Assembly (NCBI GenBank): GCA_947487205.1
Contig: CANKVU010000017.1
Span: forward strand, 55,895 to 119,894
Source: an uncultured Paracoccaceae bacterium
GTDB lineage: Bacteria; Pseudomonadota; Alphaproteobacteria; Rhodobacterales; Rhodobacteraceae
Reading direction: 5' to 3'
DNA length: 64,000 nt
The stretch's first letter is position 1. Each line of letters opens with the position of its first letter. Shown here in pieces: positions 3,139-25,507 of this stretch. Position numbers and translations under genes: made by a program. Under the pieces are notes generated by a model that had not been told where the DNA came from, ran no database searches, and saw only the letters and a program-made list of their open reading frames with translations.

Positions 3139-3170
3139 CCGGCCGGACCCCCACGACGGGGCCCGGCCGG
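3139..3170 (+). terminator. Intercistronic hairpin downstream of dppA (attenuator/3'-stabiliser)
   Basis: CCGGCCGGaCCCC(C)-ACGAC-GGGGcCCGGCCGG near-perfect inverted repeat just after the dppA stop, no T-tract. Confidence 0.55.
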
Positions 3171-3264
3171 ATGCCCGGGGCGGAGGGGCTTGCACCCGCA
3201 TGATCCCCGCCCTACCCGGAGCCGTCCTTCCTGCCCCAGCCAAGACCGAGCCAAGGGTGATCCG

Positions 3265-4272: not shown

Positions 4273-4273
4273 G

Positions 4274-5188: not shown

Positions 5189-5191
5189 CCG

Positions 5192-6499
5192 ATGCTGAGA
5201 GTTCTCTCCCGCCCGCTGACGGGATTGGTTGAAAAGTACCTCCCCGACCCGTTCGTCCTTGTCGTCGTGCTGACCCTGATCACGATGGGAAGTGCGATCG
5301 TGTTCCAGGGCACCGGGCCGACCGAGGTTCTGCGCATGTGGGGCGACGGTTTCTGGTCGCTGCTGTCGTTTTCGATGCAGATGCTGTTCGTGCTGGTCTC
5401 GGGCTTCATGATGGCCTCGACCCCGCCGGTGAAACGCCTTTTGTCCTGGCTGGCCGGACGCGCTTCATCTCCCGGCGGCGCCATCGTGATGGTGAGCCTC
5501 GTCAGCCTCGCGGCCAGCTGGCTCAACTGGGGCTTCGGCCTGGTGGTCGGCGCGCTCTTCGCCAAGGAGATGGCGCGACAGATCCGCGTCGATTACCGCC
5601 TGCTGATTGCCTCGGCCTATTCCGGCTTCCTGATCTGGCACGGCGGGATATCCGGTTCGATCCCGCTGTCGGTCGCCACGGAAGGGCACCCCTTCGTGGA
5701 CCAGATCGGGATCATCCCGACATCTGAGACGATCTTCTCGTTCTACAACCTCGCCATCGTGGCCGCGCTCGTCGTCGTCATCCCGCTCGTGAACCGCGCG
5801 ATGATGCCGCCGGAAGAGCGGATGGTGACGGTCGACCCCGATCTTCTGCGCGAAGAGAGCGATGAGGACCCGGGCGAGACGACACCCGCCGACTGGCTGG
5901 AAACGTCGCCGATCCTGTCATGGCTCGTGGGCATCGCCGGTGCGGCGTTCCTCGTGATCCATTTCGCCGGCGGCGGCGGCCTGTCGCTCGACATCGTCAA
6001 CTTCACCTTCCTGACCCTCGCGATCCTGCTGCACGGCACACCCCGCCGGCTGCTGCGCAGCCTCGACGAGGGCATCAAGGGCGGCGCCGGGATCGTCATC
6101 CAGTTCCCGTTCTACGCGGGCATCATGGGGATCATGACGGCCAGCGGTCTGGCCGCCTCCATGTCGGAAGGGCTGGTCTCGCTCGCCAACGAGTTCACCT
6201 TCCCGTTCTGGACCTTCCTGTCGGCGGGGATCGTCAACTTCTTCGTCCCCTCCGGGGGCGGACAATGGGCGGTTCAGGCACCGATCATCATGCCGGCGGC
6301 CGACTCGATCGGCATCGACCAGGCGCGCGCCGCCATGGCCGTGGCGTGGGGCGATGCATGGACGAACATGATCCAGCCGTTCTGGGCGCTGCCGCTCCTC
6401 GGGATCGCGGGCCTGCGCGCACGGGACATGATGGGTTTCTGCGTCGTGCATCTGCTCATCGGCGGGGTGATCATCACACTGGGACTGACGTTGCTATGA
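5192..6499 (+). CDS. AtoE-like short-chain fatty acid transporter family permease
   Basis: [33 protein letters not shown]...[20 protein letters not shown]...[22 protein letters not shown], characteristic of AtoE/SCFA transporter family; overlaps dppD start. Confidence 0.88.
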
Positions 6500-7473
6500 G
6501 CCTGCTGAGAATCCGTAACCTCTCGGTTACCTTTACCACGGCGGGCGGCGCGTTCCGCGCCGTCGACAAGGTCGACGTGGACGTCGATAGCGGGGAGATC
6601 CTGGCCATCGTGGGCGAGAGCGGGTCCGGCAAGTCGGTTTCGATGCTCGCCGCGATGGGCCTGCTGCCCTGGACTGCGACGGTGACGGCCGACGAGATGA
6701 GCTTCGACGGGCAGGATCTGCGGCAGCTGACCGGCAAGGCGCGGCGGCGGCTGATCGGAAACCAGCTGGCGATGATATTCCAGGAGCCGATGTCGTCGCT
6801 GAACCCGTGCTTCACCGCCGGCTTCCAGATCCGCGAGGCACTGAGGAAGCATACCGACCTGGATCGAAAGGCGCGCCACGCCCGATGCGTGGAATTGTTC
6901 GAGATGGTCGGGATTCCCGATCCGGAACGGCGCCTTGCCGCGTTTCCCCACCAGCTTTCCGGGGGGATGAACCAGCGGGTGATGATCGCCATGGCGATCT
7001 CGTGTCGACCGCGCCTGCTGATCGCGGACGAGCCCACCACCGCGCTTGATGTCACCATCCAAGCCCAGATCCTGGACCTTCTGGTGAACCTCCAACGGGA
7101 AACGGGGATGGGTCTGATCCTCATTACCCACGACATGGGCGTGGTGGCGGAAACCGCGGAACGCGTGGCCGTCCAATATGCCGGCCAGAAGGTGGAGGAC
7201 CAGCCGGTCCGCAATCTTTTCGACAGCCCGCACCACCCCTACACGGCCGCGCTCCTCGCCGCCCTGCCCGAACGCGCGACCGAGGCCCGCCTGCCGACCA
7301 TTCCAGGCGTCGTCCCCGGGCAGCACGACCGCCCCGCCGGGTGCCTCTTCTCGCCCCGCTGCCGCTATGCCGACGACCGGTGCCGCAACGTCGTACCGCC
7401 GGTGCAGCCGGACGCGCTCGGGCGCGCGCTCTGCCATTATCCGCTCAACGCACCGGAGGAGGCACGGGCATGA
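6496..7473 (+). CDS. dppD: Dipeptide ABC transporter ATP-binding protein DppD
   Basis: Walker A GESGSGKS, signature [15 protein letters not shown], Walker [13 protein letters not shown]; oligopeptide transporter C-terminal Cys motif. Confidence 0.93.
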
Positions 7474-7549
7474 AAGACGCTGCGACAGCGCGTTCCGAAA
7501 CGGGCCTTCGGCCTATCGGCGACCCGGAGCGACGCGGGTGGGCCGTAAC

Positions 7550-8503
7550 ATGAGCCCGGTCATCGAGGCCCGCGACCTCGGTCGTGATTACGAGGTCGGC
7601 GGCGGCCTATTCTCGGAACCCGGGATCGTGCGTGCGGTCGCCGCCACCTCTTTCGCCGTCGATGCGGGGCGGACGCTTGCGGTCGTGGGCGAGTCGGGGT
7701 GCGGGAAATCGACCCTCGCGCGTCTCGTGACCATGATCGAGGAGCCGACCTCGGGTTCCTTCGCCATCGACGGGGTCGAGGTGACGCCGGCCAGGTGGGC
7801 CGAGCTCAGGACCGATGTCCAGATCGTGTTCCAGGATCCCTACGGGTCCCTGAACCTTCGCCAGCGGGTCGGTCAGATCCTTGAGGAACCACTGAAGATC
7901 AACCGCCCCAAGCTGTCCCGGAAGGAACGGCAGGAACGGGGGCGGGAGATGATGCGCCTCGTCGGCCTCCGAGACGAGCATTACGACCGTTATCCGCACA
8001 TGTTCTCGGGCGGCCAGCGCCAGCGGGTGGCCGTTGCCCGGGCCCTGATGCTGGAGCCGAAGCTCCTCGTGCTCGACGAGCCCGTCTCGGCACTTGACCT
8101 GTCGATCCAGAGCCAGATCCTGAACCTCCTGAACGAGTTGCAGGAGAAGATGGACCTCGCCTATCTCTTCATCTCTCACGACCTGTCTGTCGTGCGGCAT
8201 GTGGCCGACGACATTCTGGTGATGTATCTGGGGCGGCCCGTCGAGTTCGGCCCTAAGGACGAGGTGTTCGACGCACCGCGGCACCCCTATACAAAAGCGC
8301 TGATCTCGGCCACGCCCTCCGCGAACCCCGAAGGCCGGCGCGAGCGCATCAAGCTGACGGGCGAAATTCCCTCTCCGCTCGCCGTCCCGCCCGGATGCCC
8401 CTTCGCGCCGCGTTGCTGGAAGGCGCAACAGAAATGCCGCGACGAACGCCCCGCGATGACCGGCCACCCCCACCCGGCCGCCTGCTTCTTTCCCGAGAAC
8501 TAA
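7550..8503 (+). CDS. dppF: Dipeptide ABC transporter ATP-binding protein DppF
   Basis: Walker A GESGCGKS, FSGGQRQRVAVARAL, LLVLDEPVSALD. Confidence 0.93.
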   Translation: MSPVIEARDLGRDYEVGGGLFSEPGIVRAVAATSFAVDAGRTLAVVGESGCGKSTLARLVTMIEEPTSGSFAIDGVEVTPARWAELRTDVQIVFQDPYGSLNLRQRVGQILEEPLKINRPKLSRKERQERGREMMRLVGLRDEHYDRYPHMFSGGQRQRVAVARALMLEPKLLVLDEPVSALDLSIQSQILNLLNELQEKMDLAYLFISHDLSVVRHVADDILVMYLGRPVEFGPKDEVFDAPRHPYTKALISATPSANPEGRRERIKLTGEIPSPLAVPPGCPFAPRCWKAQQKCRDERPAMTGHPHPAACFFPEN

Positions 8504-8518
8504 ACTTGCCATCCGCAT

Positions 8519-8541
8519 CCCCCGCCCGGCATGGTCGGGGG
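8519..8541 (+). terminator. Possible hairpin after dppF
   Basis: CCCCCG-N11-CGGGGG inverted repeat between dppF stop and the dehydratase start; no T-tract. Confidence 0.35.
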
Positions 8542-8564
8542 CCGGAGAAGGAAAGGATTTCCCG

Positions 8565-10346
8565 ATGAGCGATACACGCGCGAACCGTCGCTTCCGGTCC
8601 CAGGAATGGTTCGATAACCCGAACAATCCGGGGATGACGGCGCTCTACCTCGAAAGATACCAGAACCAGACGTTCACGTGCGAGGAATTGCAAAGCGACC
8701 GGCCCGTCATCGGCATTGCCAATTCCGGCTCCGATCTCGCGCCGTGCAACAAGATCCACGTCTTCCTGATGGACCGGATCAAGGCCGGGATCCGCGACGG
8801 CGGCGGCATTCCCATGGAATTCCCCGTCCACCCGATCCAGGAGACGGGCAAGCGCCCCACCGCGGCGCTCGACCGGAACCTGACCTATCTGGGGTTGGTG
8901 GAGGTTCTGCACGGCTATCCGATCGACGGGGTGGTGCTGACCACGGGCTGTGACAAGACCACGCCGGCCATGCTGATGGGGGCGGCGACCACCGACCTGC
9001 CGGCCATCGCCTTGAATGGCGGGCCGATGACCGACGGCTGGTGGAAGGGCAAGCGCGCCGGATCCGGTACCGTGATCTGGGAAAGCCGGCGACTGCTGGC
9101 CGAAGGCAAGATCGATTACGACGAGTTCATGGAGCGGGCCTGCCACTCGGCCCCGTCGCTCGGCCATTGCAACACGATGGGTACCGCCTCGACGATGAAC
9201 GCATTGGCCGAGGCGCTGGGCATGACGCTGACCGGCGCCTCGGCGATTCCAGCCCCCTTCCGGGAGCGGATGGCCATGGCCTACGAGACGGGCCGCCGCA
9301 TCGTCGGCATGGTGCTGGAGGATCTGCGCCCCTCGTCCATCATGACACGGCAGGCCTTCGAGAACGCCATCGTCGTGAACTCTGCCATCGGGGGGTCTAC
9401 CAACGCTCCGCCGCACCTCGCGGCCGTGGCCCGGCACGTGGGCGTGGAGCTCGACATCCATGAATGGGAGACGATCGGTCACGACGTGCCCTTGATGGTC
9501 AACATGCAACCTGCCGGGGAATACCTCGGAGAAAGCTTCTTTCGCGCCGGTGGCGTCCCGGCCGTGATGGGCGAGTTGCGCAAGGCCGGCCGGCTGCACG
9601 ACGCGCCGATGACCGCCACGGGCCGAACCATGGGCGATAACCTGGACGGCTGGGAAAGCCGCGACACCGATGTGGTGACGACCTATGACGCGCCGCTGCG
9701 AAAGAACGCGGGCTTCAAGGTGATCTCCGGCAACCTGTTCGATTCCGCGCTGATGAAGTCCTCGGTCATCTCCGAGGGATTCCGGCAGCGATACCTGTCC
9801 GAGCCGGGGCGCGAGGGGATCTACGAGGCGCGGGCCGTCGTGTTCGAGGGGCCGGAGGATTATCACGACCGAATCAACGACCCCGGTCTGGAGATCGACG
9901 ACCGCACGATCCTGTTCATCCGCGGCGTGGGCTGCGTCGGATATCCCGGTTCGGCCGAGGTAGTGAACATGCTTCCCCCCGACGCCGTGGTGAAGGAGGG
10001 GATTTCCCATCTGCCGACGGTCGGCGACGGCCGGCAATCCGGCACGTCCGAAAGCCCGTCGATCCTGAACGCGTCCCCCGAGGCCGCGGTCGGTGGCGGC
10101 CTCGCCTTCCTTAAAACCGGGGACCGGGTGCGACTGGATCTCAACGCGTCCCGCATGGACGCGCTGGTCGACGAGGCCGAATGGCAGGCCCGAAAGGACG
10201 CCTGGACCCCGCCCGACCTGATCAACGAAACCCCATGGCAGGAGATCTACCGCACCCATGTCGGCCAGCTCGGGCGAGGCGGCTGCCTGGAACTGGCGAC
10301 GGCCTATCACAAGACCTCCGCCACGCTGCCGCGCGACAACCACTGA
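8565..10346 (+). CDS. IlvD/Edd family dehydratase (sugar-acid dehydratase-like, e.g. L-arabinonate/D-xylonate)
   Basis: CDKTTPAMLMGA, NSGSDLAPCNKIH, GHCNTMGTASTMN and GCVGYPGSAEVVNM motifs of the IlvD/Edd family. Confidence 0.92.
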   Translation: MSDTRANRRFRSQEWFDNPNNPGMTALYLERYQNQTFTCEELQSDRPVIGIANSGSDLAPCNKIHVFLMDRIKAGIRDGGGIPMEFPVHPIQETGKRPTAALDRNLTYLGLVEVLHGYPIDGVVLTTGCDKTTPAMLMGAATTDLPAIALNGGPMTDGWWKGKRAGSGTVIWESRRLLAEGKIDYDEFMERACHSAPSLGHCNTMGTASTMNALAEALGMTLTGASAIPAPFRERMAMAYETGRRIVGMVLEDLRPSSIMTRQAFENAIVVNSAIGGSTNAPPHLAAVARHVGVELDIHEWETIGHDVPLMVNMQPAGEYLGESFFRAGGVPAVMGELRKAGRLHDAPMTATGRTMGDNLDGWESRDTDVVTTYDAPLRKNAGFKVISGNLFDSALMKSSVISEGFRQRYLSEPGREGIYEARAVVFEGPEDYHDRINDPGLEIDDRTILFIRGVGCVGYPGSAEVVNMLPPDAVVKEGISHLPTVGDGRQSGTSESPSILNASPEAAVGGGLAFLKTGDRVRLDLNASRMDALVDEAEWQARKDAWTPPDLINETPWQEIYRTHVGQLGRGGCLELATAYHKTSATLPRDNH

Positions 10347-11056
10347 CCGGAGCCGGGCCGGGTACCGGCCCCCGTTCCCTCTTCGCCGGTGGTGGCGATC
10401 CAGTTCCTGATCCGCGCGCCATACGCCCCCAAAACAGGTTTCCGTGGGGCCGCACGCGGCCAAAACCCTAGCATGGCGGTTTTACCTTGCGGATCTACCG
10501 AAACCGGCAGTGCAGCCGAGACCGGGAAGATCAGTGAGCCTTCCGATCGAAGGCTCGACCAATGAAGGGACCGGCCAATTCCGGTTCATATGCATCAGTC
10601 GGCTCGCCGCGACGACGGGCGCGTGCGCAGGCGGCAGGCCGAAAAGCGCCGTGATCGTCAGGCAGGCACGGATGGTGTAGCCGGGACAATCCGACGTTGC
10701 CTTTTTTGCGCGAGGCCCCGGTGTGTCAGGCCATGCCGGGGTCGAGCTGGATCGTCAGCGATCCGAGGGCACAATGGCGTGTAGCAGAACGAGTAGTTCG
10801 GCGACGGAAGGAGGTGGTGTCAGGCCTCGACACGCCGCCCACCATGTCGACGGACTCGTCATGCAGATCCCGGTGGGCCTTGGACAACGCCATCACGACC
10901 GCACGGGATCCGGCGTTCCAGTCATCCCGGTGCGCCCATGGGTCTGCCATTCGCCCCCACCTGAGCCAGCCGAGACGCCCGGCGCACAAACGTGTTCCTT
11001 GCAGACCAGCTCGAGTGTGCCGTCACCACGACTGCTAGAAACGCCTGGGGAAAGTA

Positions 11057-11133
11057 TGGCGGTCGCACTAGGATTCGAACCTAGGGCCTTCGCCTTCGGA
11101 GGGCGACGCTCTATCCAGCTGAGCTATGCGACC
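11057..11133 (-). tRNA. tRNA-Arg (anticodon CCG)
   Basis: Reverse complement GGTCGCATAGCTCAGCTGGATAGAGCGTCGCCCTCCGAAGGCGAAGGCCCTAGGTTCGAATCCTAGTGCGACCGCCA folds as a cloverleaf; anticodon loop CTCCGAA; encoded CCA. Confidence 0.96.
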
Positions 11134-11186
11134 TTACGGCGCCTTCCCTAGCGGGGTTTGGCACCGACGACAACCGCGAAACCGCC

Positions 11187-12407
11187 TCAGGCGAAGAGGT
11201 CGTGGCAGAGTTCCAGCGCATCGACGAGCACGTCGACCTCGGCGCGGGTGTTGTAGAGCCCAAACGAGGCGCGGCAGGTCGCGGTCAGGCCGAGATGATC
11301 CATCAAGGGACCGGCGCAATGGTGCCCCGCCCGGACCGCCACGCCCTTCTTGTCAAGCACGGTGGAGATGTCGTGGGCATGGGCCGCCCCTTCGAGCGTG
11401 AACGAAAAGATCGCCCCCTTGCCCGGGGCATCGCCCTGCATGGTCAGCCAGTTGAGGCCAAAGAGGCGCTCGCGCGCATAGTCACGCAGGTCCGCCTCGT
11501 GCGCGGAAATCGCCTCCATCCCCAAGCCGGTCATGTAGTCGAGCGCCGCCCCGAGGCCGATCTGGGCGACGATCCCGGGCGTTCCGGCCTCGAATTTCAT
11601 CGGCGCCTCGGCGTACTCGACGCGGTCGCGATGCACTTCGCGAATCATGTCGCCGCCGCCCATGAAGGGGCGCATCTCGGCCAGTCGCTGGGGGTGGACA
11701 TAGATCGCACCGGACCCGGAAGGGCCGTAAAGCTTGTGTCCCGTGATGGCATAGAAATCGCAACCGATCGCGTCCACGTCGATGGGCAGGTGCACGGCGG
11801 CCTGGCTTCCGTCGACCAAGGTGGCCACGCCCCGCTCGCGCGCGGCCGCGCAGATCGCGGCCACGTCGACCACCGTCCCCAGCACGTTCGACATGTGGGT
11901 GATTGCCACCAGCTTTGTGCGTGGCCCTATGGCGTCGATCACCTTCTGCGGATCGAGGCTGCCATCCGCCTCGGGTTCGACCCATCGCAGGGCCACGCCC
12001 TGACGTTCGCGCAGGAAGTGCCACGGGACGATGTTGGCATGGTGTTCCATTACCGAAAGGACGATCTCGTCGCCGGCCTCCATCTTTGGCATGGCCCAGC
12101 CATAGGCCACCATGTTGATCCCCTCGGTGGTGCCGGTGTTCATGATCACCGATTCGGCATCCGTCGCGCCGAGGAACGCCGCGATCCGGCCCCGGACCGC
12201 CTCGTACTTCTCCGTCGAGAGGGTCGACAGCGTGTGCAGCCCCCGGTGCACGTTCGAATATTCCTCGGCATAGGCGCGCCGGATCGTCTCCAGCACCGCC
12301 TGCGGCTTCTGCGCCGAGGCGCCATTGTCGAGGTAGACCAGCGGCTTGCCGTTCACCTCGCGCGACAGGATGGGGAAGTCCTGCCGGACCTGTTCCACGT
12401 CGTACAT
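11187..12407 (-). CDS. sufS: Cysteine desulfurase SufS
   Basis: MYDVEQVRQDFPILSREVNGKPLVYLDNGASAQKP...VHRGLHTLS...AITGHKLYGPSG...RAGHHCAGPLM. Confidence 0.96.
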   Translation of the reverse strand: MYDVEQVRQDFPILSREVNGKPLVYLDNGASAQKPQAVLETIRRAYAEEYSNVHRGLHTLSTLSTEKYEAVRGRIAAFLGATDAESVIMNTGTTEGINMVAYGWAMPKMEAGDEIVLSVMEHHANIVPWHFLRERQGVALRWVEPEADGSLDPQKVIDAIGPRTKLVAITHMSNVLGTVVDVAAICAAARERGVATLVDGSQAAVHLPIDVDAIGCDFYAITGHKLYGPSGSGAIYVHPQRLAEMRPFMGGGDMIREVHRDRVEYAEAPMKFEAGTPGIVAQIGLGAALDYMTGLGMEAISAHEADLRDYARERLFGLNWLTMQGDAPGKGAIFSFTLEGAAHAHDISTVLDKKGVAVRAGHHCAGPLMDHLGLTATCRASFGLYNTRAEVDVLVDALELCHDLFA

Positions 12408-12416
12408 GACGCCTCC

Positions 12417-13010
12417 TTACCGCGGGACGGTGACGCCCGCGAGGGTGAGAAGGAAAGAGAGACCAAGCGCCACACCCATCAGGATGAAGAGGATCATGGC
12501 GAAGACCCGGCCCTTGGAGTCGAAGCCGTGCAGCTCGGTCACGAAGGCCGTGAGGAGGTAGAGGAACACTGCCACCCCCGCGAGCACGATCAGCGCCGCA
12601 CCGACGGGAAACACGAGGAGGACGGCACTCTGGACGATCTGGAGGCAGACCATGACGAATTGCAGCCATGCCACCGCCAGCACGGCGCCGTCGAGATCGC
12701 CCGTCCCGCCCATCATCCGCCCGACGCGGTCGATCAGCAGCACCGACAGGGCGAGGATCGCGAACTGAATGCCGACGAAGGCCAGGGGGCTCAGAAAGGC
12801 CTGCCCCGCCGGCCCGCCGAGCGCGGCGGCGAGGACCATGTTCACGATCTCGGCCAGGATCACCGACACGATGACCACCGCCGCTAGCGCCTGCCACAGC
12901 ACGTCGCGCGGCAGGCTGAGCGCCCGCAATTCCGCGAAGACCGGGCGCGGTTCCCGCACCGTCCGGACGGCCAGTCGGACCAGTCCCCCGAGGGATGTCA
13001 GTTCACTCAT
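12417..13010 (-). CDS. YIP1-family membrane protein
   Basis: Multi-TM 197 aa protein MSELTSLGGLVRLAVRTVREPRPVFAELRALSLPRD...; position within the suf cluster. Confidence 0.75.
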   Translation of the reverse strand: MSELTSLGGLVRLAVRTVREPRPVFAELRALSLPRDVLWQALAAVVIVSVILAEIVNMVLAAALGGPAGQAFLSPLAFVGIQFAILALSVLLIDRVGRMMGGTGDLDGAVLAVAWLQFVMVCLQIVQSAVLLVFPVGAALIVLAGVAVFLYLLTAFVTELHGFDSKGRVFAMILFILMGVALGLSFLLTLAGVTVPR

Positions 13011-13489
13011 CCGCGCTCCACGTGTCGAAGTCCGCCGGCCCAGATCAGGACGAAGGCAAGAAGAGCCGCGATGCCCACGAAGTCGAGCACCGGCCCCGGG
13101 CCCATGAACCCCGCCACGAGCCCCCAGACCAGCCAGAGCGGCGCGGCAGCGAGCAGCGCCCAGAAGAGGGCCATTCGCGCCTCGGTGTACGTGGCGCGGC
13201 CGCCGAGCCGGCGCGCCACCCAATGGCTGATCCCGGCAAAGCCGTAAAGGACGAGCGGCGCGATCAAGATCCACCCCATCAGCGCGCCGGCCAGCAGCAT
13301 GTCGAGATCCTGTCCGGTCAGGAAACTTTCGCGGGAGAGCCGCGGCCATTGCGCCACGAAGATCAAGAAACAGGCCAGCATGCAGGTCGCGAGCGCCCGC
13401 GCCTCGGCCCGATCGGCCGCGCCCAGCCGGCGGCGCAGGATCGCGCCCGGCCGCCGGTAGCTCGCCGCGATGTCCCCCGCCAGCGCCAC
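13007..13489 (-). CDS. Second small YIP1-like membrane protein (GTG start inferred)
   Basis: VALAGDIAASYRRPGAILRRRLGAADRAEARALATCMLACFLIFVAQWPRLSRE...; ATGA overlap with the downstream YIP1 gene. Confidence 0.7.
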   Translation of the reverse strand: MALAGDIAASYRRPGAILRRRLGAADRAEARALATCMLACFLIFVAQWPRLSRESFLTGQDLDMLLAGALMGWILIAPLVLYGFAGISHWVARRLGGRATYTEARMALFWALLAAAPLWLVWGLVAGFMGPGPVLDFVGIAALLAFVLIWAGGLRHVERG

Positions 13490-13490
13490 G

Positions 13491-14789
13491 TCAGTCCGCG
13501 TGCCGGTCGAGCCAGTTCTCCAGTCGCTGGCGCAATGCCTCGGCGATCTGCTCGTCCTCGATCTCGGCCAGCGTTTCGGCGAGGAAGGCCAGCACCAGAA
13601 GGTCGGTGGCCCGCCGCTCGGGCACCCCTCGGGCGCGCAGGTAGAACAGCATGTCGTCGTCGATCGCCCCCGTGGTGGAGCCGTGCGAGCAGGCCACGTC
13701 GTCGGCATAGATCTCCAGCTCGGGCTTGGCGAGGAACTGGCTGTCGCCATCGAGAAGGAGCGCCTGGCTGATCTGGTAGCCGTCGGTCTTCTGCGCGCCG
13801 GGCCTGACGAGGATCTTGCCCTGAAAGACCCCGAGCGCGCCGTTCTTGAGAACCTTCTTGAAAACCTGGCGGCTTTCGCAATTGACCGCGTCGTGCGTCA
13901 CGAAGACGGTATCATCGTGGTGCATGGGCGCGATGCGGCCGTCGCCGATGGCCGCACCGGCCACGTGGGCCACGGCGTCGTCGCCCTGGAACTCCACCAC
14001 GTGCTCGTTGCGCGTCAGCGCGCCGTTGAGGCTGAGCGTGAACGACTTGAAGACCGACCGCGCGCCGAGCCGGGCAAAAGTATGGGTGTTGGCGCGCCGC
14101 TCGCGGTTGCGCCCTTGGGAGCGAACGTGGTGCAGCGTGCCGCCCCCGGCGATGTCGGCCTCCATCACGGTGTTGAACCGCGCGCCGACGGCGCCGGTTT
14201 CCAGAACCGTGACCGAGGCGCTGTCATCGACCTTGACCACGTGATGCAGGATCGGGTCGCTGGCGGCGTCCTCGTGGAGGTAGGCTATGTTGATCGGCCT
14301 CGCCGCCCGCCCCGTGGCGTGGATCAGGATCCCATCCGTGGCGAAGGCGGTGTTGAGGGCGGCAAAGGGCCGCGTGACCGGGTCCTGCCCGCGAGCCTCC
14401 AGCTGGCCATAGACCTCGCGTGCCCAGTGGATGTCGGCGTCCTGCACCGCGCCCAGTCGCGAGATCTCGACCCCCTCGAGCGCCAGTTCGTCGGAGGCGT
14501 CGGCGTCGAAGACCCCGTCACGGAACACCACGGTCAGAGCCGGAAGGTCCTCATAGAGCGGCGGCTCGTCGCTTTCGTCCATCGGCTCCGCGCGCGGCGG
14601 CTCGACCGCGTTCAGGTCGGCCGGTCGGGTGAAGCGCCAGTATTCGTCACGCGGGGCCGGCAGGCCGGTCGCGTTCAACCGCGAGAGCGCATCGGCGCGC
14701 GCCGCCCGGGTCCATCCGCCCTCCGCCGGCAGGCTCAGCGCCGAAACCCGCGCATGGGTCGCGTCCTGTTTCTGCTCCGGCAGCGCCAT
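13491..14789 (-). CDS. sufD: Fe-S cluster assembly protein SufD
   Basis: PAPRDEYWRFTRPADLNAV...CSHGSTTGAIDDDMLFYLRARGVPERRATDLLVLAFLAE, SufD family. Confidence 0.95.
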   Translation of the reverse strand: MALPEQKQDATHARVSALSLPAEGGWTRAARADALSRLNATGLPAPRDEYWRFTRPADLNAVEPPRAEPMDESDEPPLYEDLPALTVVFRDGVFDADASDELALEGVEISRLGAVQDADIHWAREVYGQLEARGQDPVTRPFAALNTAFATDGILIHATGRAARPINIAYLHEDAASDPILHHVVKVDDSASVTVLETGAVGARFNTVMEADIAGGGTLHHVRSQGRNRERRANTHTFARLGARSVFKSFTLSLNGALTRNEHVVEFQGDDAVAHVAGAAIGDGRIAPMHHDDTVFVTHDAVNCESRQVFKKVLKNGALGVFQGKILVRPGAQKTDGYQISQALLLDGDSQFLAKPELEIYADDVACSHGSTTGAIDDDMLFYLRARGVPERRATDLLVLAFLAETLAEIEDEQIAEALRQRLENWLDRHAD

Positions 14790-15544
14790 CACGCGTTCTC
14801 CTTCAGGATGTCGGTGTAGCCGTTCTTCTCGACCTCGAGGGCCAGGTCCGGTCCGCCGGTCTTCACGATGCGGCCGTCGGACATGATATGCACTACGTCG
14901 GGCTGGATGTGGTCGAGAAGCCGCTGGTAATGGGTGATGACGAGGAAGCCGCGATCCGGCGCACGCAGGGCGTTCACGCCATTGGCCACCAGCTTCATCG
15001 CATCCACGTCGAGGCCGCTGTCGGTCTCGTCCATGATGCAGAGCTTTGGTGCCAGCATCGCCATCTGCAGGATTTCGTTGCGCTTCTTCTCCCCGCCCGA
15101 GAAGCCGACATTGACGGGCCGCTTCAGCATGTCCGCGTCGATCTGCATCTCCTTGGCCTTGGCGCGAACCTCCTTGAGGAAGTCGGCCGAGGACATCTCG
15201 GCCTCCCCGCGGGCCTTGCGCTGGGCGTTCACTGCCGTCCGCATGAAGGTCATGTTGCCGACGCCGGGGATCTCGACAGGATACTGGAAGGCCAGGAACA
15301 TGCCGGCCGCGGCCCGCTCCTCGGGCTCCATTTCGAGGATATCCTGACCCAGAAGCGTCGCCTCGCCCTCTGTCACCTCATAGCCCTCGCGCCCCGACAG
15401 GACATAGGACAGGGTCGACTTGCCCGAGCCGTTCGGCCCCATAATCGCATGGACCTTGCCGGCCTCGACCGTCAGGTCGACTCCTTTCAGGATCTGCTTA
15501 TCCTCTTCCTCCAGCTTCACGTGCAGGTTCTTGATCTCAAGCAT
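14789..15544 (-). CDS. sufC: Fe-S cluster assembly ATPase SufC
   Basis: MLEIKNLHVKLEEEDKQILKGVDLTVEAGKVHAIMGPNGSGKSTLSYVLSGREGYEVTEG... Confidence 0.97.
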   Translation of the reverse strand: MLEIKNLHVKLEEEDKQILKGVDLTVEAGKVHAIMGPNGSGKSTLSYVLSGREGYEVTEGEATLLGQDILEMEPEERAAAGMFLAFQYPVEIPGVGNMTFMRTAVNAQRKARGEAEMSSADFLKEVRAKAKEMQIDADMLKRPVNVGFSGGEKKRNEILQMAMLAPKLCIMDETDSGLDVDAMKLVANGVNALRAPDRGFLVITHYQRLLDHIQPDVVHIMSDGRIVKTGGPDLALEVEKNGYTDILKENA

Positions 15545-15656
15545 TCGACTTTCCTTTCAGCGCGTTGCCGCGCGTCTTTCCGATCTTGGGCGAAGGAGAG
15601 CCAACCGCCCCCCGCGCCGCGCATCAATCATTTGCCCACACCCCGGCGGGCCCGTG

Positions 15657-16001
15657 TCAGTCGAGGGTCACGGCGGTTCCGGACGCGGACACCATCAGCA
15701 TTCCGCTCTCCTTGCCCACCACCTCGTAATCGAGATCGACGCCGACGACGGCCTGCGCGCCCGCGTCGCGGGCCCGGTCCTCCATCTCGCGCAGCGCCAT
15801 CTCCCGCGCCTCGTTGAGGCTCTTCTCGTAGGCGCCGGACCGCCCACCGATGATGTCCCGGATACCGGCGAACATGTCCCGGAAGACGTTGGCGCCGAGG
15901 ATCGCCTCGCCAACCACGATCCCCTTGTAAGCGGTGATCCGGCGCCCCTCCACCGACTGGGTTGTCGTGACGATCATCTCGGATTTCGACCAGAAGCTCA
16001 T
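15657..16001 (-). CDS. YbjQ/UPF0145 family protein
   Basis: [93 protein letters not shown]. Confidence 0.9.
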
Positions 16002-16201
16002 TTCTTCCTCCTGAACATCAATCGCCCGGCGATCCAGCCCAGGACCGCCGACACCGCCACGACGACGAGCAGCCGGGGCATCGGATCTCCCAGCCACCAT
16101 TCGAGGCTGGCGATCATCCCCAGCGCAACGCCGGCGCCCACCACCAGGCGCACGAAGAAGCGGGCGCGTTCGGGCGCACGGATCGGGTCCAGCTCACCCA
16201 A
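15998..16201 (-). CDS. Small membrane protein
   Basis: 67 aa with two hydrophobic segments; ATGA overlap with the downstream YbjQ-like gene. Confidence 0.6.
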
Positions 16202-16204
16202 GGC

Positions 16205-16552
16205 TCACCCCCTGAACACCAGCGCCGCCCCGCAGGCGATGAGCGCGAACCCCGCAACAGTGGTCCAGCTTGGTGGCTCGTCGAGGTACCAAGCGGAAAA
16301 GCCGGCGAAGACGATCAGCGTTATCACCTCCTGGATGGTCTTCAACTGGGCGGGCGTATAAACGGCCGCTCCGATCCGGTTGGCCGGCACCGCCAGCCAG
16401 TACTCGAAGAACGCGATCCCCCAGCTGACCATCACGACCAGGACGAGGGGCGCCGCCGGATGTTTCAGATGGCCGTACCACGCAAACGTCATGAAGACGT
16501 TCGACGCGCAAAGCATCACCACCGGAAGCGCGGCCTGTATCGCGGGCGTCAT
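16205..16552 (-). CDS. DMT/DUF486 family small membrane protein
   Basis: MTPAIQAALPVVMLCASNVFMTFAWYGHLK...SWGIAFFEYWLAVPANRIG...YTPAQLKTIQEVITL. Confidence 0.88.
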   Translation of the reverse strand: MTPAIQAALPVVMLCASNVFMTFAWYGHLKHPAAPLVLVVMVSWGIAFFEYWLAVPANRIGAAVYTPAQLKTIQEVITLIVFAGFSAWYLDEPPSWTTVAGFALIACGAALVFRG

Positions 16553-16559
16553 TGGTCAC

Positions 16560-18131
<1,572 letters not shown>

Positions 18132-18145
18132 CTGTCGTCTCCTTC

Positions 18146-19195
18146 TCAGGCGGCGCGCGCCCGCTGCTTGTGCCATTGCCGGAGCCAGCATTCCGCGAAG
18201 CGGCTCACGTCCTCGTCCGTTGTCCCGGGCCCCATGGAAATCCGGATCGCCGATCCGGCCGAGACATCGTCCAATCCCATCGCGGCCAGAACGCCCGATC
18301 CGCGGAGCTTGCCGCTGGAACAGGCCGATCCGGCCGAGACCGCGAACCCCGCGAGGTCCATCTGCATCACCTGGGTCTCCCCCTTCCAGCCGGGCGAGAC
18401 GATCAGGCTCGTATTGGGCAGGCGCGGCCCTCCTCTACCTGGGCAGATAAGACCCGAGGCGCCCTTCATCAACGCGTCTTCGAGCGCGTCGCGGCGCCGC
18501 GCCACGGCGTCCCATGTCCCCGCCGCCAGATCCCGCGCCGCCGCTTCGGCCGCGGCGCCGAAGCCCGCGATGGCGGCCACGTTCTCCGTTCCGGCGCGGC
18601 GGCCCATCTCCTGGCCGCCGCCGCGGGACCGCGCCGCGAGGTCCAGGCCCCGCTTCAGCAACAGCGCGCCCACGCCCTTGGGTCCACCGATCTTGTGGGC
18701 GGAGACGAAGGCCATGTCGGCCCCTGACCAGTCAAAGGCAAAGGGCACCTTGCCGAAGGCCTGCGTGGCATCCACCACCGCCAGCCCCGCGGGGAGCGCC
18801 TGGAGGACGCCCGTTTCGGAATTGGCCGCCTGGAGCGCGCTGGCGGCGGGTTCGGATACCGTCACCCGCCCCCCGGAATCGACCGGCAGCACCGGATCGC
18901 ACCAGGCCAGCACCGCCTCGTGCTCCACCGGCGCGCAGACGAGCCCCCGTCCCGCGCAAGCCAAAGCCGCGGCCTCCGTCGCCCCCGACACGAAGACGAC
19001 ATCCGCCGCCCCCGCGCCGGTAGCCTCCGCCACCTGGCCCCGTGCCCGCTCCACCGCTTGCCGCGCCGCGCGGCCTTCGGCATGGATCGAGGACGGGTTG
19101 CCGACCAGGTCGAGCGCCGCCACCATCGCCGCCCGCGCCTCAGCGCGAAGGGGAGCGGTGGCGTTGCGGTCGAAATATGTGCGCGCGTGCTTCAT
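18146..19195 (-). CDS. Cysteine desulfurase (NifS/IscS-type)
   Basis: [28 protein letters not shown]...[20 protein letters not shown]...[19 protein letters not shown]. Confidence 0.93.
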
Positions 19196-19250
19196 CCTTT
19201 GGCGAATACCCTCCTGGGGCTCCGGGGGCGAAAGCACCCCGGTACGGCGG

Positions 19251-19712
19251 TCAGGCTTCGTCGACCACCTCGAACAGCGACGGCACCGCCGGACACGGCG
19301 CGAGAGTATTGCCCACCACGTCCGACAGCCGAGTCTGGTGCAGGAAGACGTAGACCTGCGCCGACAACCCCTCCCACAATCGATTGTTGAGGGATTGCGC
19401 CTTGGTTCCCGACAGCCCGCCCTTGGCTCCGGCGCCGGTCTCCAGCGCCGAGACGCTTTCATCCACCGCGCCGAGAACGTCCGAGACCCGGATCTCCGAG
19501 GGCCGTCGGGCCAGCCGGTAGCCCCCCCCGGGCCCCCGCACCGACATCACCAGCCCGGCCCGACGCAACTTGACGAAGAGTTGTTCCAGGTAAGGTAAGG
19601 ACACGTTCTGCCGCCGCGATAGGTCAGACAGGGACGTGAGCGCACCCTCTGGCTGCAGCGCCAGATCGGTGAGCGCCACCATCGCGTAGCGTCCCTTGGT
19701 GCTCAGCTTCAT
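19251..19712 (-). CDS. iscR: Rrf2-family transcriptional regulator, IscR-like
   Basis: MKLSTKGRYAMVALTDLALQPEGALTSLSDLSRRQNVSLPYLEQLFVKLRRAGLVMSVRGPGGGYRLAR; first gene of the suf cluster. Confidence 0.93.
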   Translation of the reverse strand: MKLSTKGRYAMVALTDLALQPEGALTSLSDLSRRQNVSLPYLEQLFVKLRRAGLVMSVRGPGGGYRLARRPSEIRVSDVLGAVDESVSALETGAGAKGGLSGTKAQSLNNRLWEGLSAQVYVFLHQTRLSDVVGNTLAPCPAVPSLFEVVDEA

Positions 19713-19806
19713 GCGATCTCGCACCCCCTCCGGCCAAGAGTTGACGGCGCCGCGCGGCGCGGCTACCTCCACACGTCGATCGCGGGCGTAGGGCCCGCGC
19801 CCTTAA

Positions 19807-19823
19807 TTTAGAATGGCTCTAGG
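19807..19823. promoter_or_regulatory. ICE-like (Irr) palindrome in the iscR/hydrolase divergent intergenic region
   Basis: TTTAGAA-TGG-CTCTAGG compared with the ICE consensus TTTAGAA-N3-TTCTAAA: left half exact, 4/7 in the right half. Confidence 0.55.
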
Positions 19824-19900
19824 GTGTGCGACCGGCGCCGTCAATATCGGCGCCCCGGTCGCGGCGCTCTCAGGCGACGAAAAGGACGAGGCTCCCCACG

Positions 19901-20554
19901 ATGCCAGAGGTGATTTTCCCCGGTCCCGAAGGTCGGCTCGAGGGGCGCTACCACCCGCAGCGCAAGCCCGACGCCCCGATCGCGATCATCCTTCATCCGC
20001 ACCCGCAATTCGGCGGCACGATGAACAACCGGGTCGTTTACAACCTGCATTACGCGTTCTTCGAACTGGGCTTCACGGTGCTGCGGTTCAACTTCCGCGG
20101 CGTGGGCCGCAGCCAGGGCGAATACGACCAGGGCGTAGGCGAGCTGTCGGATGCCGCCGCCGCGCTGGATTACCTTCAATCGATGAATTCGAACGCCAAG
20201 CATTGCTGGGTCGCGGGGTTCTCGTTCGGGGCGTGGATCGGGATGCAGCTACTGATGCGCCGCCCCGAGATCACCGGCTTCGTCTCGGTCAGCCCGCCGG
20301 CGAACATGTACGATTTCTCGTTCCTGGCACCCTGTCCGTCCTCGGGGCTGATGCTGAACGGAACCGCGGACCGCGTCGCGCCGCCGAGGGACACCCACAA
20401 CCTCGTCGGCAAGCTGCAGGAGCAGAAGGGAATCACCGTCACCCACGAAGAGATCGAGGGCGCGGGTCATTTCTTCGAGGATCCGCATATGGAGCCGATG
20501 ATTGGCCATGTGCAGGATTACGTGCGCCGCCGGCTGACCGAAACGACGCGCTGA
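19901..20554 (+). CDS. Alpha/beta hydrolase
   Basis: MPEVIFPGPEGRLEGRYHPQRKPDAPIAIILHPHPQFGGTMNNRVVYNL...GFSFGAWIGMQ; divergent from iscR. Confidence 0.9.
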   Translation: MPEVIFPGPEGRLEGRYHPQRKPDAPIAIILHPHPQFGGTMNNRVVYNLHYAFFELGFTVLRFNFRGVGRSQGEYDQGVGELSDAAAALDYLQSMNSNAKHCWVAGFSFGAWIGMQLLMRRPEITGFVSVSPPANMYDFSFLAPCPSSGLMLNGTADRVAPPRDTHNLVGKLQEQKGITVTHEEIEGAGHFFEDPHMEPMIGHVQDYVRRRLTETTR

Positions 20555-20559
20555 GCGAG

Positions 20560-21304
20560 ACGGCACGGCTTGGCGCGGCGCCCCCGGGACCCACGCTCCG
20601 CCGCGCGACAGACGCATCCGCACGTCGGCGACGGCGAAATCCGCGGGCGGGTGGAACGCCGTCCACCGCCCCTTGGGCAGCCGAGTCCCACCAAGGAAGG
20701 TGTGGTTGCTGGACCCCTTGCCGCCGCCGTATTCTAGGATCTGCCAACCGCCGACCTTCTGCCGGATGACCGCGTGGCGACCAGAGATGCGTTCCTCGCG
20801 ATCGAGCACGGTGTCGCACCATGTCGGGTCCCGACCGATCCGGATCACCCCCTGGGCATCGAAGCCCGCCAGCCGTTCGAGTGTGTGGCTCTTGCCGCCG
20901 TAATGGCCCGACAGGACCTCGATCCGCCAGCCGCGGGTGGCGGCGAGGCGCCCCGGCGCCAGGGGCGAATACCAGACGAGGTCGGCTGCCGCGTCGTAGC
21001 GCGCCGCGCGCCGCAGGCCCAGCCCGCCGGTCCCCAGGGACAGGATCTTGCCGACCGCGCGCCGCACCACCTGGCGGGCCGTCGGACGCCCCCCGTCGCG
21101 GGCGCGCAGTTCCAGCATTAGGCACGCGCGGCCGAAGCTGCGGCCACCCAGGAGCAGTTCGCACAGCGTCCAATACAGGATCAGCAGGACCCCGAACCCG
21201 AGTAGACCGAACAGCAGGCCCACCGCCTGCGCCACCTCCGCGATCGTGGCGATACCCTTCGCGCTGGTCCGCCACGGCCGACTGCACGGCCAGGCTGGAG
21301 GCAT
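20560..21304 (-). CDS. RDD-like transmembrane segment plus FHA domain protein (boundaries uncertain)
   Basis: VGLLFGLLGFGVLLILYWTLCELLLGGRSFGRACLMLELRARDGGRPTARQVVRRAVGKIL (RDD-like), then VIRIGRDPTWCDTVLDREERISGRHAVIRQKVGGWQILEYGGGKGSSNHTFLGG (FHA). The open frame runs to 20249 without a stop and the N-terminus is ambiguous. Confidence 0.65.
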
Positions 21305-22124
21305 GGTCAAGCGTGGCGGTGATGCCCGGACGCCCCTGAGCGACATCACGAGCGCCACGCGGTTCGAGGTACCGCCCTTCGACCCGGCGACCATGGCGCC
21401 GTCAGCCGACCGGTTCACGGTCGCGCGGCTTGCCGTGGCAGGGCTGTCGATCACCTCGGCCGAGCAGACCGAGCGCCTGAAGGAGGATCTCGACCGATTG
21501 GCCGGCATCGACCCGAACCTGACGAGCGTCGCGTCAGAGGCCGAGATCGGCGCCATCCTCGACGATTTGGGGGCGCTGATGGACACCGCCCAGAGTCGGC
21601 AGAAGCTGGGGCTGATCCGCGACACGGTCACCACCGCCCCCGCCGACCGCAACGCCCAGCGCGACCGCTCCATCCGGCTGATCCTCGAATCCGGGACGCT
21701 GATCTGCGACCAAGTGGTGCAGCGGCTGCTGAACGCGCTCGCCATCAACGCGATCCTGCAGAACTACGCCGACCTCGAAGGCGAGGCGCGCAACTCGGGG
21801 GACGCGGCGCTGCTCGACGAGCTGGAGATCGCGCGGGCAGAGGCCGCGCAGAGCCTGCAGAAGCTGGAGGCACAGATGCGAACCGAGCTGGGAGAATACG
21901 CCAATCTCGTCGAGGGGCTGGGCGACGATTACTCCTTGCCGCTGCTGAAGCGTCACGCCGCCTTCGTGGCGGGTGACGTGGATGCGCGGGGGCCGCGCCG
22001 CGCCGCCTGCCTCGACGCGCTCGAAAATCACCTGGAGATCCGGGCGATGGACGGTTTCGTCGATGCCGACACGCTGGAGGGCGACCTGCGCGAAATCGCC
22101 ATCGAGCGGGGGTCGAACCAATGA
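21303..22124 (+). CDS. Uncharacterised protein of a kinase/FHA/vWA locus (start 21303 or 21393)
   Basis: Coherent ORF ...SITSAEQTERLKEDLDRLAGIDPNLTSVASEAEIGAILDDLGALMDTAQSRQKLGLIRDTV...; no family recognised. Confidence 0.6.
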   Translation: MVKRGGDARTPLSDITSATRFEVPPFDPATMAPSADRFTVARLAVAGLSITSAEQTERLKEDLDRLAGIDPNLTSVASEAEIGAILDDLGALMDTAQSRQKLGLIRDTVTTAPADRNAQRDRSIRLILESGTLICDQVVQRLLNALAINAILQNYADLEGEARNSGDAALLDELEIARAEAAQSLQKLEAQMRTELGEYANLVEGLGDDYSLPLLKRHAAFVAGDVDARGPRRAACLDALENHLEIRAMDGFVDADTLEGDLREIAIERGSNQ

Positions 22125-22173
22125 GCGCTCCGAGCCGCCGCCCCGTCCCGAATCCACGCCATGAGGTCACGCC

Positions 22174-23510
22174 GTGAACGCCGTCACAGACAGTCTGAAA
22201 CCGGGCGTCGTCGTCCAGGACACCTACCGGATCGACGCCCTTCTGGGCGAGGGGGGCATGGGGGCCACGTTCGCGGGGCGCAACCTGGCGACCGACCACC
22301 CGGTAGCGATCAAGGTCATTTCGGCCGCCTTCGCGGGCAATTCCCGCGCCGTCGAGCTTTTCCGGCGCGAGGCGAACCTGCTGCGCACCATCCAGCACGA
22401 GGCGGTGGTGCGTTACGAGACGACGCTACTCGACCGCGAGGGGCGGCTCTATCTGGTGATGGAGAAGCTCGACGGCCATCCGCTGTCGCATTACGTCCAG
22501 CGCGGCGCGCGGTTGTCGCCCGAGTTTACCTTGCGGCTTGGAGGCCGGCTGGCGTCGGGGCTCGACGCCATCGCATCGGTGGGGACCGTCCATCGCGACA
22601 TCGCGCCGGACAACATCTTCGTGCCCGACGGCGACATCCAGGAGGCCAAGCTGATCGATTTCGGGCTCGCCTCTAACACGATCGGAACCGAAAAATCGAT
22701 TCTCGGTGACGATTTCGCCGGCAAGTTCAGCTATTGCGCGCCCGAGCAGCTGGGCGTGGTCGACGCCCCCGTCAGCCCGAGGACGGACGCCTACGCGCTG
22801 GGCCTCGTGCTGATGAAGGTGGCAGGCTTCCCCGTTCCGGGCGAGGGCAAGGGCGCGGGTGCGGCGCGGCGCGCCGATATCGAGATCCCCGGCGACCTGG
22901 CGGGGCCGGCGCTCGGCCACGTGCTGTGGCAACTTTTGCGCGCCGACCCCGAAGCTCGGCCGAGTCCGATCACCCCGGCCTTCGAGCGCGCCCTGACATC
23001 CGGCGCCCCCCCGCCGGACCCGGTGGCGCGCCGAACGGAACACCGGGTGCGGGACCCGCAGGCACAAGCACATCGCGACGGCGCCTCCCGCTCCTCGCGG
23101 CGGGGGGCGCGGCTGAGGTAGCCGCGCTCGGCGCGCTTGCGTTCCTCCTTCTGGGCCCGGACCAAGTGCCAGAGGGGGCCGCGCTCGACCAAGGCCGGAT
23201 GTGCGAGGCAGCACTCGGGGCCGACGACCCCCTGGCCGAGGTGCGCGCGCTGGTGGCGGCAGGCGATCCCGATTCCCTGAACGGCGCCCTGGCTGCCCTT
23301 CTGGCCATGGGGCGCGACGAAACCCGCCCCGATCCGGTTCGCATCGAGGCGCTGACGATGGCCGCGCGCATGTCGGACCCGCAAACCTTTGATCCCGGCG
23401 CCTCGCCCTTCGCCGAACCCGACGGCGGCATGGCGCGCCGGCTCTATCTCGGCGCGGCGGAGCTCGGCTCCGAGGATGCCCGCCGCGCTGCCGCCAGACT
23501 GGAGGAGTGA
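22174..23510 (+). CDS. Membrane Ser/Thr protein kinase, ORF interrupted by an apparent -1 frameshift at a C7 tract (kinase frame 22174-23121; TM/C-terminal frame continues to 23510)
   Basis: LLGEGGMGATFAG glycine loop, AIKVI, HRDIAPDN, DFGLAS, APEQL kinase motifs. After C7 at 23006-23012 the coherent sequence continues in another frame: AGPGGAPNGTPGAGPAGTSTSRRRLPLLAAGGAAEVAALGALAFLLLG...YLGAAELGSEDARRAAARLEE*. Confidence 0.8.
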
Positions 23511-23515
23511 CGCCC

Positions 23516-25507
23516 ATGTTCCGCCCAACCCTCTCCCTTGCCATCGCCATGTCTCTCGCCCTCGGGACCGCCCTGCCCGCCCAGACGCGCGAGCCGATGA
23601 TCATGGAGGGCAAGGACACGCTCTATCACCGGGTGCTGATCCGCGACGCGACCCGGCGCCACGACGCCCCGGATGGCACCGCCGGAGCGCGCGTGGCCCC
23701 GCTCCAACCGCTTTTCGTCTATGCCGAGGACGGCGACTGGATGCAGGTCGGGGTGGACAATCGCGGCACCGACCTGTTCTGGATCCCGGCCGCCGCCTCG
23801 GTCGCGTGGCGCCAGAACATCGTCGCCACTTTCGAGGGCTCGGAAAATGTCGGGCGGGTGCTGTTCTTCGCCGACGAGGATGCCGCTTACGACACCGTCG
23901 AGAGCGAGGATCCCGCCCGGTCCGCCGCCGCCCTGCGCGATTCCGCCCGCGCCGCCGAGGAGGGCGGCCCCCCGTCGGAGCAGGTGGTCGCGCTCGGCCC
24001 CCGCGCCACGCCCGACCTGCGCCAGAACCTCTATGTGATGCCGATCCTCGAAAGCGAAGAGGCGGTGCTCGAATCGACCGGCGCCTACGTGAACCTGCTG
24101 AAGGTCGCGGTCGCACGCGCCGATGCCGGTGTGGAACCAGATCCAGAGATGTCCGGCGCGATCGAGGAGGCGCCCGTCGCGCTGCCTGACGTCGACCGGG
24201 AGGACTTCCGAGCCGCCGTCGTCTTCGTGGTCGACACCACCGTATCGATGCAGCCCTACATCACCGGTACCCGCGACGCGCTGGAGGAGGTCTGGCGTAG
24301 CTTCTCGGGCCGCGACCTGGGCGAGGCGGTGTCGTTCGGGCTGATCGGCTACCGGGACAGTCTCGTCGCGGCACCGGGGCTGGGCTATGACGTACGTACC
24401 TTCGTGTCGCTGCAGGACGGGACCGATCCCGGGGCTTTCCTGTCAGGCATCGAGGCAATGACCGAGGCGGAGGAAACGAGCCGCAACTTCCGCGAGGACA
24501 GCTATGCGGCCATCGACCACGCCCTGCGCGATCTGGACTGGTCGGACTATGGCGCCCGCTACATCGTCCTGGTCACCGATGCCGGCCCGCGCGAGGCAGG
24601 CGACGAGTACAGCGCGACGGGGCTGACTGCGCGGGCCCTCAACTCCCTGGTCAAGGAACGCCTGAACGCCGCGCTGGCCGTCATGCACCTCAAGACCCCG
24701 CAGGGAGGGGCCGACCATGCCAGCGCCGAGGCCGCCTATCGCGATCTCGCCGGGCAGGCGAACCAGGCCGCGCTCTACTTCCCCGTCGAGGGCGGCGATC
24801 CGGTCGCCTATCGGGACGCGGCGCGCAAGCTGGGCGGGCTGGTCGTGGACCAGGTCCTGTCGTTCCGCGGCGACGACGGCGTGACCGACGGCCGGTCGGC
24901 GATCGAGGAACAGGCCGCCGAGGAGGAAGCGGATCGGATGACCCGGGCCGTGCGCTCGGCCGGGCGGACGATGCAGCTGGCCTATCTGGGGCGCGAAGGC
25001 GGCGCCGAGGCCCCCGACGTGTTCGAGGCCTATGTCGCCGACCGCGATTTCGACCGACCCGGGCTGAAACCCCTTTCGATCCGCCTGTTGCTGTCGAAGC
25101 GCGAGCTGTCTGACCTCGACGAGGCGTTGAAAATCATCATTCGCAAGGGCGAGGAGAACATCCTGTCGGCGGACCAGATGTTCGGTCAGGTCCTGGCCGC
25201 AGCCGCCGACATGAGCCGCCGGCCCGACCGGGTCGCGCGCAACGCCGACACCACCCTGGCCGAAGCCGTCTCGGTCGCCGAGATGCTGGACGGGCTCCCC
25301 TACCAGTCGCGGATCATGTCGGTGACGGAGGAGGACTGGATCTCCATGTCGATCTCCGAGCAGCAGACGATCATGTCAGGCCTCATGGACAAGGTGGAGC
25401 TCTACGCGCGGTTCAACGAAACCACGGACCAGTGGGTGGATTATCTGGGGACCGGCGCCACGGCCGAGGCGCTGCTCTATCCCATGCGGCTCGACGATTT
25501 GCCCTGA
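23516..25507 (+). CDS. Secreted/periplasmic von Willebrand factor A-domain protein
   Basis: Signal peptide MFRPTLSLAIAMSLALGTALPAQ; VVFVVDTTVSMQPYITGTRDALEEVW...SFGLIGYRDS...IVLVTDAGPREAGD. Confidence 0.85.
   Translation: MFRPTLSLAIAMSLALGTALPAQTREPMIMEGKDTLYHRVLIRDATRRHDAPDGTAGARVAPLQPLFVYAEDGDWMQVGVDNRGTDLFWIPAAASVAWRQNIVATFEGSENVGRVLFFADEDAAYDTVESEDPARSAAALRDSARAAEEGGPPSEQVVALGPRATPDLRQNLYVMPILESEEAVLESTGAYVNLLKVAVARADAGVEPDPEMSGAIEEAPVALPDVDREDFRAAVVFVVDTTVSMQPYITGTRDALEEVWRSFSGRDLGEAVSFGLIGYRDSLVAAPGLGYDVRTFVSLQDGTDPGAFLSGIEAMTEAEETSRNFREDSYAAIDHALRDLDWSDYGARYIVLVTDAGPREAGDEYSATGLTARALNSLVKERLNAALAVMHLKTPQGGADHASAEAAYRDLAGQANQAALYFPVEGGDPVAYRDAARKLGGLVVDQVLSFRGDDGVTDGRSAIEEQAAEEEADRMTRAVRSAGRTMQLAYLGREGGAEAPDVFEAYVADRDFDRPGLKPLSIRLLLSKRELSDLDEALKIIIRKGEENILSADQMFGQVLAAAADMSRRPDRVARNADTTLAEAVSVAEMLDGLPYQSRIMSVTEEDWISMSISEQQTIMSGLMDKVELYARFNETTDQWVDYLGTGATAEALLYPMRLDDLP

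Follow-up and report, generated by a model that had tools for sequence, protein, structure and literature searches.

Apparent remnant of a T6SS-independent TagQRST/PpkA-like threonine-phosphorylation locus in an uncultured Paracoccaceae bacterium

Introduction

In Pseudomonas aeruginosa, attack is sensed by TagQRST, and the kinase PpkA is activated by TagR, probably via the periplasmic domain of the kinase; Fha1 is then phosphorylated by PpkA, a step that PppA reverses (PMC6082577, PMC3224232). TagQRST has been described as restricted to Pseudomonas (PMC6082577). The T6SS of Serratia uses a PpkA-RtkS input, in which the periplasmic domain of PpkA is of a distinct kind and TagQRST is missing; compared by description, it resembles the loci treated below in that a periplasmic protein feeds a PpkA-type kinase (PMC6082577). 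TagQRST/PpkA genes have also been reported beside SrfABC in T6SS-free, host-associated Deltaproteobacteria (PMC3608642).

Here we analyze a stretch of 64,000 nucleotides (the window) from the end of contig C17 of an uncultured Paracoccaceae bacterium, the genome of which is a draft of 82 contigs with a completeness of 99.8%. A preliminary description of the window had pointed to four neighboring genes, encoding an RDD-FHA membrane protein, an unrecognized protein, a membrane Ser/Thr kinase, and a secreted vWA protein, and had proposed that together they form a T6SS-free phosphosignaling module of the PpkA/Fha kind, as a candidate for an undescribed system. We find that this proposal holds for an intact locus in 12 relatives, while the copy in the window is an apparent remnant of it.

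Results

The four visible genes. Pfam searches recover the FHA domain on the minus strand (E = 1.3e-8), the RDD part of the same ORF falling under the cut-off (E = 3e-4), as well as the Ser/Thr kinase domain (Pkinase, E = 1.8e-32) and the vWA protein, which has a signal-peptide-like start and matches PF00092 just under the curated cut-off (E = 8e-5). The protein left unrecognized is instead a TagR-like protein reduced to its C-terminal half and corresponds to residues 235 to 526 of the 530-amino-acid orthologue of Litoreibacter roseus (55% identity). The kinase gene does encode a kinase domain, but it is not one intact membrane kinase, as its TM and C-terminal part lies in another frame. The arrangement of the four genes is not a matter of chance, because orthologues of all four occur together in one conserved locus of relatives. 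The locus is adjoined by ordinary Suf iron-sulfur cluster genes (window positions 14789 to 19772), with SufC-, SufB-, cysteine-desulfurase-, and Rrf2-regulator-like ORFs.

An intact locus in relatives. Among 298 family genomes, 28 carry a homologue of the vWA protein, that of the window being one of them. Two of the homologues are close (63% identity in L. roseus and 56% in another), and the rest share 29 to 38%. A scan of named genomes with the single vWA sequence gave no match, and one with a three-sequence alignment of the close homologues gave 11 loci, in Roseovarius, Litoreibacter, Ruegeria, Cereibacter johrii, Natronohydrobacter, and several MAGs, a group that we call type B. Adding one further genome (G051) and counting L. 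roseus a single time gives 12 type-B relatives (Rhodobacteraceae/Roseobacteraceae). A core of kinase 1, trypsin-TM-FHA, TagT, TagS, TagR, kinase 2, and vWA genes is present in 11 of them; in the twelfth (L095), the locus is cut by a contig end, and kinase 2 and vWA are visible.

Six relatives were read further upstream, and they share a locus of ~15 genes in essentially the same order: RDD-FHA (minus strand), a 188-amino-acid membrane protein (minus strand; undetected in one of the six), TagQ-like lipoprotein, coiled-coil lipoprotein, vWA-TM-FHA, FHA, PP2C, kinase 1, trypsin-TM-FHA, TagT, TagS, TagR, a small TM protein, kinase 2-TM, and vWA. Pfam, from which the domain names are taken (TM placement was read from sequence), finds FHA in four proteins of the intact loci, Pkinase in two, and VWA in two, together with PP2C, Trypsin_2, ABC_tran, FGE-sulfatase, and Gly-zipper/Rick_17kDa_Anti. 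The PP2C gene is present in the loci of these six relatives, and the same six carry the TagQ lipoprotein, assigned by domain (Gly-zipper/Rick_17kDa_Anti) and position only. RDD-FHA orthologues (33 to 43% identity) occur in 8 of the 12 relatives, and the genome of the closest relative (L088) is without one. In the vWA tree, type B forms one clade (100/100) and the sequences from T6SS loci another, and the window sequence groups with that of L088; the deeper joins are unsure, since some branches are long.

Damage to the window copy. Set against the intact loci, the four visible genes are only the two ends of a locus of ~15 genes rather than the whole module that they had been taken for, and the kinase, FHA, and TagR genes among them are damaged (Table 1).

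Table 1. Features of the locus in the window (positions are those of the window)
Feature	Position	Strand	Remark
RDD-FHA membrane protein remnant	20603..21234	-	Orthologue-matching part of ORF 20249-21304
Junction at which the truncated RDD-FHA and TagR-like genes meet head to head	21211..21234		Homology limits: RDD-FHA homology detected up to 21211, TagR homology begins at 21234
TagR-like protein, C-terminal half only	21234..22124	+	Includes ORF 21303-22124
Kinase 2 (PpkA-N-like), complete Ser/Thr kinase domain	22174..23121	+	End of ORF is out of frame
Frame break in kinase 2	23001..23166	+	Linker before TM segment; C7 run nearby at 23006-23012
Kinase 2, TM segment and periplasmic C-terminal (Sel1-like) part	23025..23510	+	Separate frame
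Secreted vWA protein, homologue of PpkA periplasmic C-terminal region	23516..25507	+	Intact ORF

Alignment of the ends shows that the RDD-FHA ORF lacks an N-terminal stretch of ~40 residues that its orthologues have, and that it has lost the native stop, so that it runs ~117 codons beyond their common C-terminus, antisense to a neighboring hydrolase gene. The N-terminal half of TagR is nowhere in the window genome. In the L. roseus orthologue, Pfam places an FGE-sulfatase (SUMF1-like) domain at residues 138 to 267 (E = 2e-18), and this FGE/SUMF1 core lies mostly within the half that the window has lost. Support for the FGE assignment comes from Pfam and from searching PDB sequences with a profile; the AlphaFold models of TagR and vWA are poor (mean pLDDT of 59), and that of TagR is reliable only in its C-terminal part, where long helices are predicted with a pLDDT of about 90 from residue ~390. 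Searching the PDB for folds similar to the TagR model returned no match at E <= 0.001, nor did the vWA profile match any PDB chain.

In kinase 2, the catalytic motifs are kept in an alignment with 10 orthologues (K in VAIKV, HRD in HRDIAPDN, and DFG), and the kinase domain is 58% identical to that of L. roseus. Matches to the orthologues then change frame, GC content by codon position shifts too, and the TM/C-terminal part continues with 44% identity to residues 336 to 449 of the orthologue. The vWA gene is intact; its product has a DTTxS (MIDAS-like) motif and is 48 to 67% identical over its full length to 11 orthologues.

Judged by these homology limits, the truncated RDD-FHA and TagR genes are the two limits of a segment that is present in relatives and missing from the window, a segment that measures about 11 kb on L. 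roseus and about 10.5 kb on a Ruegeria locus. A deletion would have removed TagQ through mid-TagR together with the 5' end of RDD-FHA, and kinase 2 would have been frameshifted; one internal deletion, as a single event, would account for the structure of the window. The TagQ-like lipoprotein and PP2C genes are absent from the window locus. Single searches of the whole genome for each of TagS, the TagR N-terminal half, further FHA domains, and a kinase-1 orthologue found none of these parts elsewhere, and gave 1 FHA match and 2 Ser/Thr kinase matches. The second of these kinases (G000 C19:74784-75497, L118) is a PP2C-kinase fusion flanked by a formate/nitrite-transporter-like gene and by cyanase- and nitrite-reductase-like genes; its fusion architecture and different gene context led us to reject it as the lost kinase 1.

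We accordingly read the region, with a probability of roughly three in four, as what is left of a threonine-phosphorylation locus that is independent of T6SS and homologous to the TagQRST-PpkA-PppA-Fha pathway. The copy might instead be intact in reality, the deletion and frameshift being errors of sequencing or assembly in a strain with a full type-B locus. The frame break near a homopolymer (C7), the fragmentation of the draft assembly into 82 contigs, and a vWA gene without acceleration would all suit such an artifact; we nevertheless consider it unlikely, given that one FHA domain, half of TagR, no TagS, and no kinase-1 orthologue are found on any contig, that the RDD-FHA stop is lost too, and that the contig is continuous across the junction. 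The pathway in the window genome is probably dead, since ~11 kb are deleted and kinase 2 is frameshifted, and yet the vWA gene and the soluble kinase domain could still be expressed. The end branch of the vWA gene measures 0.20 in the window against 0.38 in its sister and gives no sign of relaxed selection; a branch no longer than that of the sister implies that the decay is recent or that the vWA gene is still kept. The intact, conserved vWA gene and the intact catalytic motifs of the kinase also lend something to the notion that the remnant has been repurposed, with the kinase domain in soluble form, the secreted vWA protein, and what remains of the FHA protein acting as a reduced module. 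We regard this as improbable: the kinase and its membrane/periplasmic part lie in separate frames, RDD-FHA is without its N-terminus and native stop, TagR is without most of the FGE core, TagS is gone, and the reduced gene set is seen in none of the relatives.

Relation to T6SS. A phylum-wide search with the vWA profile returned fused kinase-vWA ORFs of about 1,000 amino acids in six genomes of one family (E of about 1e-135). Five of these loci were read, and they hold PP2C, PpkA (kinase-vWA), TagT, TagS, and TagR, the order of these genes in Pseudomonas-type T6SS loci; the three read gene by gene carry a glycine-zipper lipoprotein gene and adjoining TssK-, TssL-, TssM-, and TagF-like ORFs (recognized from sequence), and one has TssB/TssC matches as well. 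Type-B vWA, TagR, TagS, and TagT are 29 to 40% identical to their T6SS-locus counterparts (E down to 1e-100), with vWA at 32 to 33% over its full length (E of about 1e-98), TagR at E of about 1e-47, and TagS at E of about 1e-48. Because the T6SS loci carry the matching set of PP2C, kinase-vWA, TagT, TagS, and TagR, this likeness is one of homology.

The VipB/TssC sheath gene, found in 71 of the 298 genomes of the family, has no match in any of the 13 type-B genomes, that is, the 12 relatives and the entire window genome, the latter bearing out the preliminary observation of separate parts without T6SS genes. The type-B genes do not, then, always sit inside a T6SS locus; zero in 12 has a p of about 0.04, and the firm point is the lack of linkage to T6SS and not a depletion of it. 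A displaced regulatory arm of a T6SS located elsewhere in the window genome would explain the homology to the T6SS threonine-phosphorylation genes and would fit the existence of SrfABC-linked cousins (type A, below) in genomes enriched for T6SS (13 of 22). We hold this to be highly improbable: a T6SS elsewhere in the window genome is rejected on the VipB/TssC result, which is the same for the 12 type-B relatives, and the T6SS loci of two type-A genomes in Rhodobacteraceae (L110/L111 of G107 and L112 of G188) lack matches to vWA, TagR, TagS, and the kinases over the 36 and 20 kb that were read.

Other settings of the vWA-TagTSR core. In type A, SrfB, SrfC, and a TM protein replacing the kinase accompany the core in about 22 genomes of the family, in other Proteobacteria, and on Klebsiella-type plasmids; a vWA homologue is found on 114 Klebsiella plasmids at about 34% identity over its full length. 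One such cluster (L120, NZ_CP043934.1, positions 3164 to 20019) reads SrfA-SrfB-SrfC-vWA-TagT-TagS-TagR, the Srf names being those of the deposited annotation, and is preceded by glycine-zipper and "tellurite resistance domain" genes. In type-A loci (e.g., L065), the TM protein that precedes vWA resembles kinase 2 in its C-terminal part, as if the cytoplasmic head of a kinase 2-like transducer had been swapped. T6SS is found in 13 of the 22 type-A genomes against 58 of the other 276 (Fisher p of about 2e-4, uncorrected for phylogeny), the SrfB/SrfC and T6SS loci lying far apart or on separate contigs. A further arrangement, type C, occurs in the genus of the window (L109 of G308, positions 7774 to 19899), where vWA-TagT-TagS-TagR stands with MotA/ExbB-like and TolR-like ORFs (names from sequence), small secreted coiled-coil proteins, a glycine-zipper lipoprotein, and a trypsin-like ORF.

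Discussion

Type B and the Pseudomonas H1-T6SS pathway have in common a homologous kinase, a vWA periplasmic part, TagT, TagS, and TagR in that order, PP2C, and a glycine-zipper lipoprotein. The differences between them lie in the T6SS sheath gene, which is absent from type-B genomes; in PpkA, whose kinase, TM segment, and periplasmic vWA domain are found in type B as two adjacent genes, kinase-TM and vWA, the kinase gene being frameshifted in the window; in the second kinase of type B; and in its four FHA proteins, among them trypsin-TM-FHA and vWA-TM-FHA, with architectures unlike the cytoplasmic Fha1. TagR (FGE-like) and the TagT/TagS ABC genes are present in 11 relatives, while the window retains only the C-terminal half of TagR and has no TagS. 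At the level of homology, the loci described here contradict the restriction of TagQRST to Pseudomonas (PMC6082577). With the SrfABC loci (PMC3608642; Rhodobacteraceae, Klebsiella plasmids), type B shares a vWA-TagT-TagS-TagR core away from T6SS genes; it differs in that kinases, PP2C, and FHA proteins take the place held by SrfB, SrfC, and a TM protein in type A, and it is a clade apart from type A in the vWA tree. SrfB and SrfC have no match in the type-B loci or in positions 8001 to 38000 of the window.

By homology, an intact type-B locus would be expected to detect an envelope event through TagQRST and the vWA protein and to signal via kinase 2. The TagQ-like lipoprotein, the TagR-like FGE protein, and the TagST ABC complex would sense the disturbance of the envelope, and the secreted vWA protein would relay it to the periplasmic domain of kinase 2, the pair amounting to a PpkA split in two genes. 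Kinases 1 and 2 would then phosphorylate threonines, PP2C would undo the phosphorylation, and the four FHA proteins would read the phosphothreonine mark, so that the RDD-FHA protein, previously put forward as the reader, is probably not the sole one. Two of the FHA proteins cross the membrane once and carry a trypsin-like or vWA domain in the periplasm, which favors inside-out control; the domains make a periplasmic protease or binding module, and not a contractile weapon, the likely output. In this scheme, sensing, phosphorylation, and output are all deduced from domains.

As to novelty, the claim of an undescribed system has to be narrowed, for TagQRST/PpkA without T6SS is known (PMC3608642); of the type-B version with its kinases, phosphatase, and multiple FHA proteins, we found no description in the literature searched, which left most subscription journals outside its coverage. 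The presence of TagQRST homologues in T6SS-free bacteria implies that the kinase pathway for damage sensing is modular and can serve other outputs. We tentatively propose, at somewhat less than even odds, that envelope sensing of the TagQRST/PpkA type is a portable unit with at least four settings (T6SS, SrfABC, FHA/protease, and ExbB/TolR-like), and that type B is an undescribed stand-alone phosphothreonine system in which FHA proteins would control, upon envelope attack, both a periplasmic protease and a vWA protein. What TagQRST and the vWA protein sense, and what they control without a weapon, thereby becomes testable. The window itself is a case of module decay, and it warns against taking four visible genes for a complete system.
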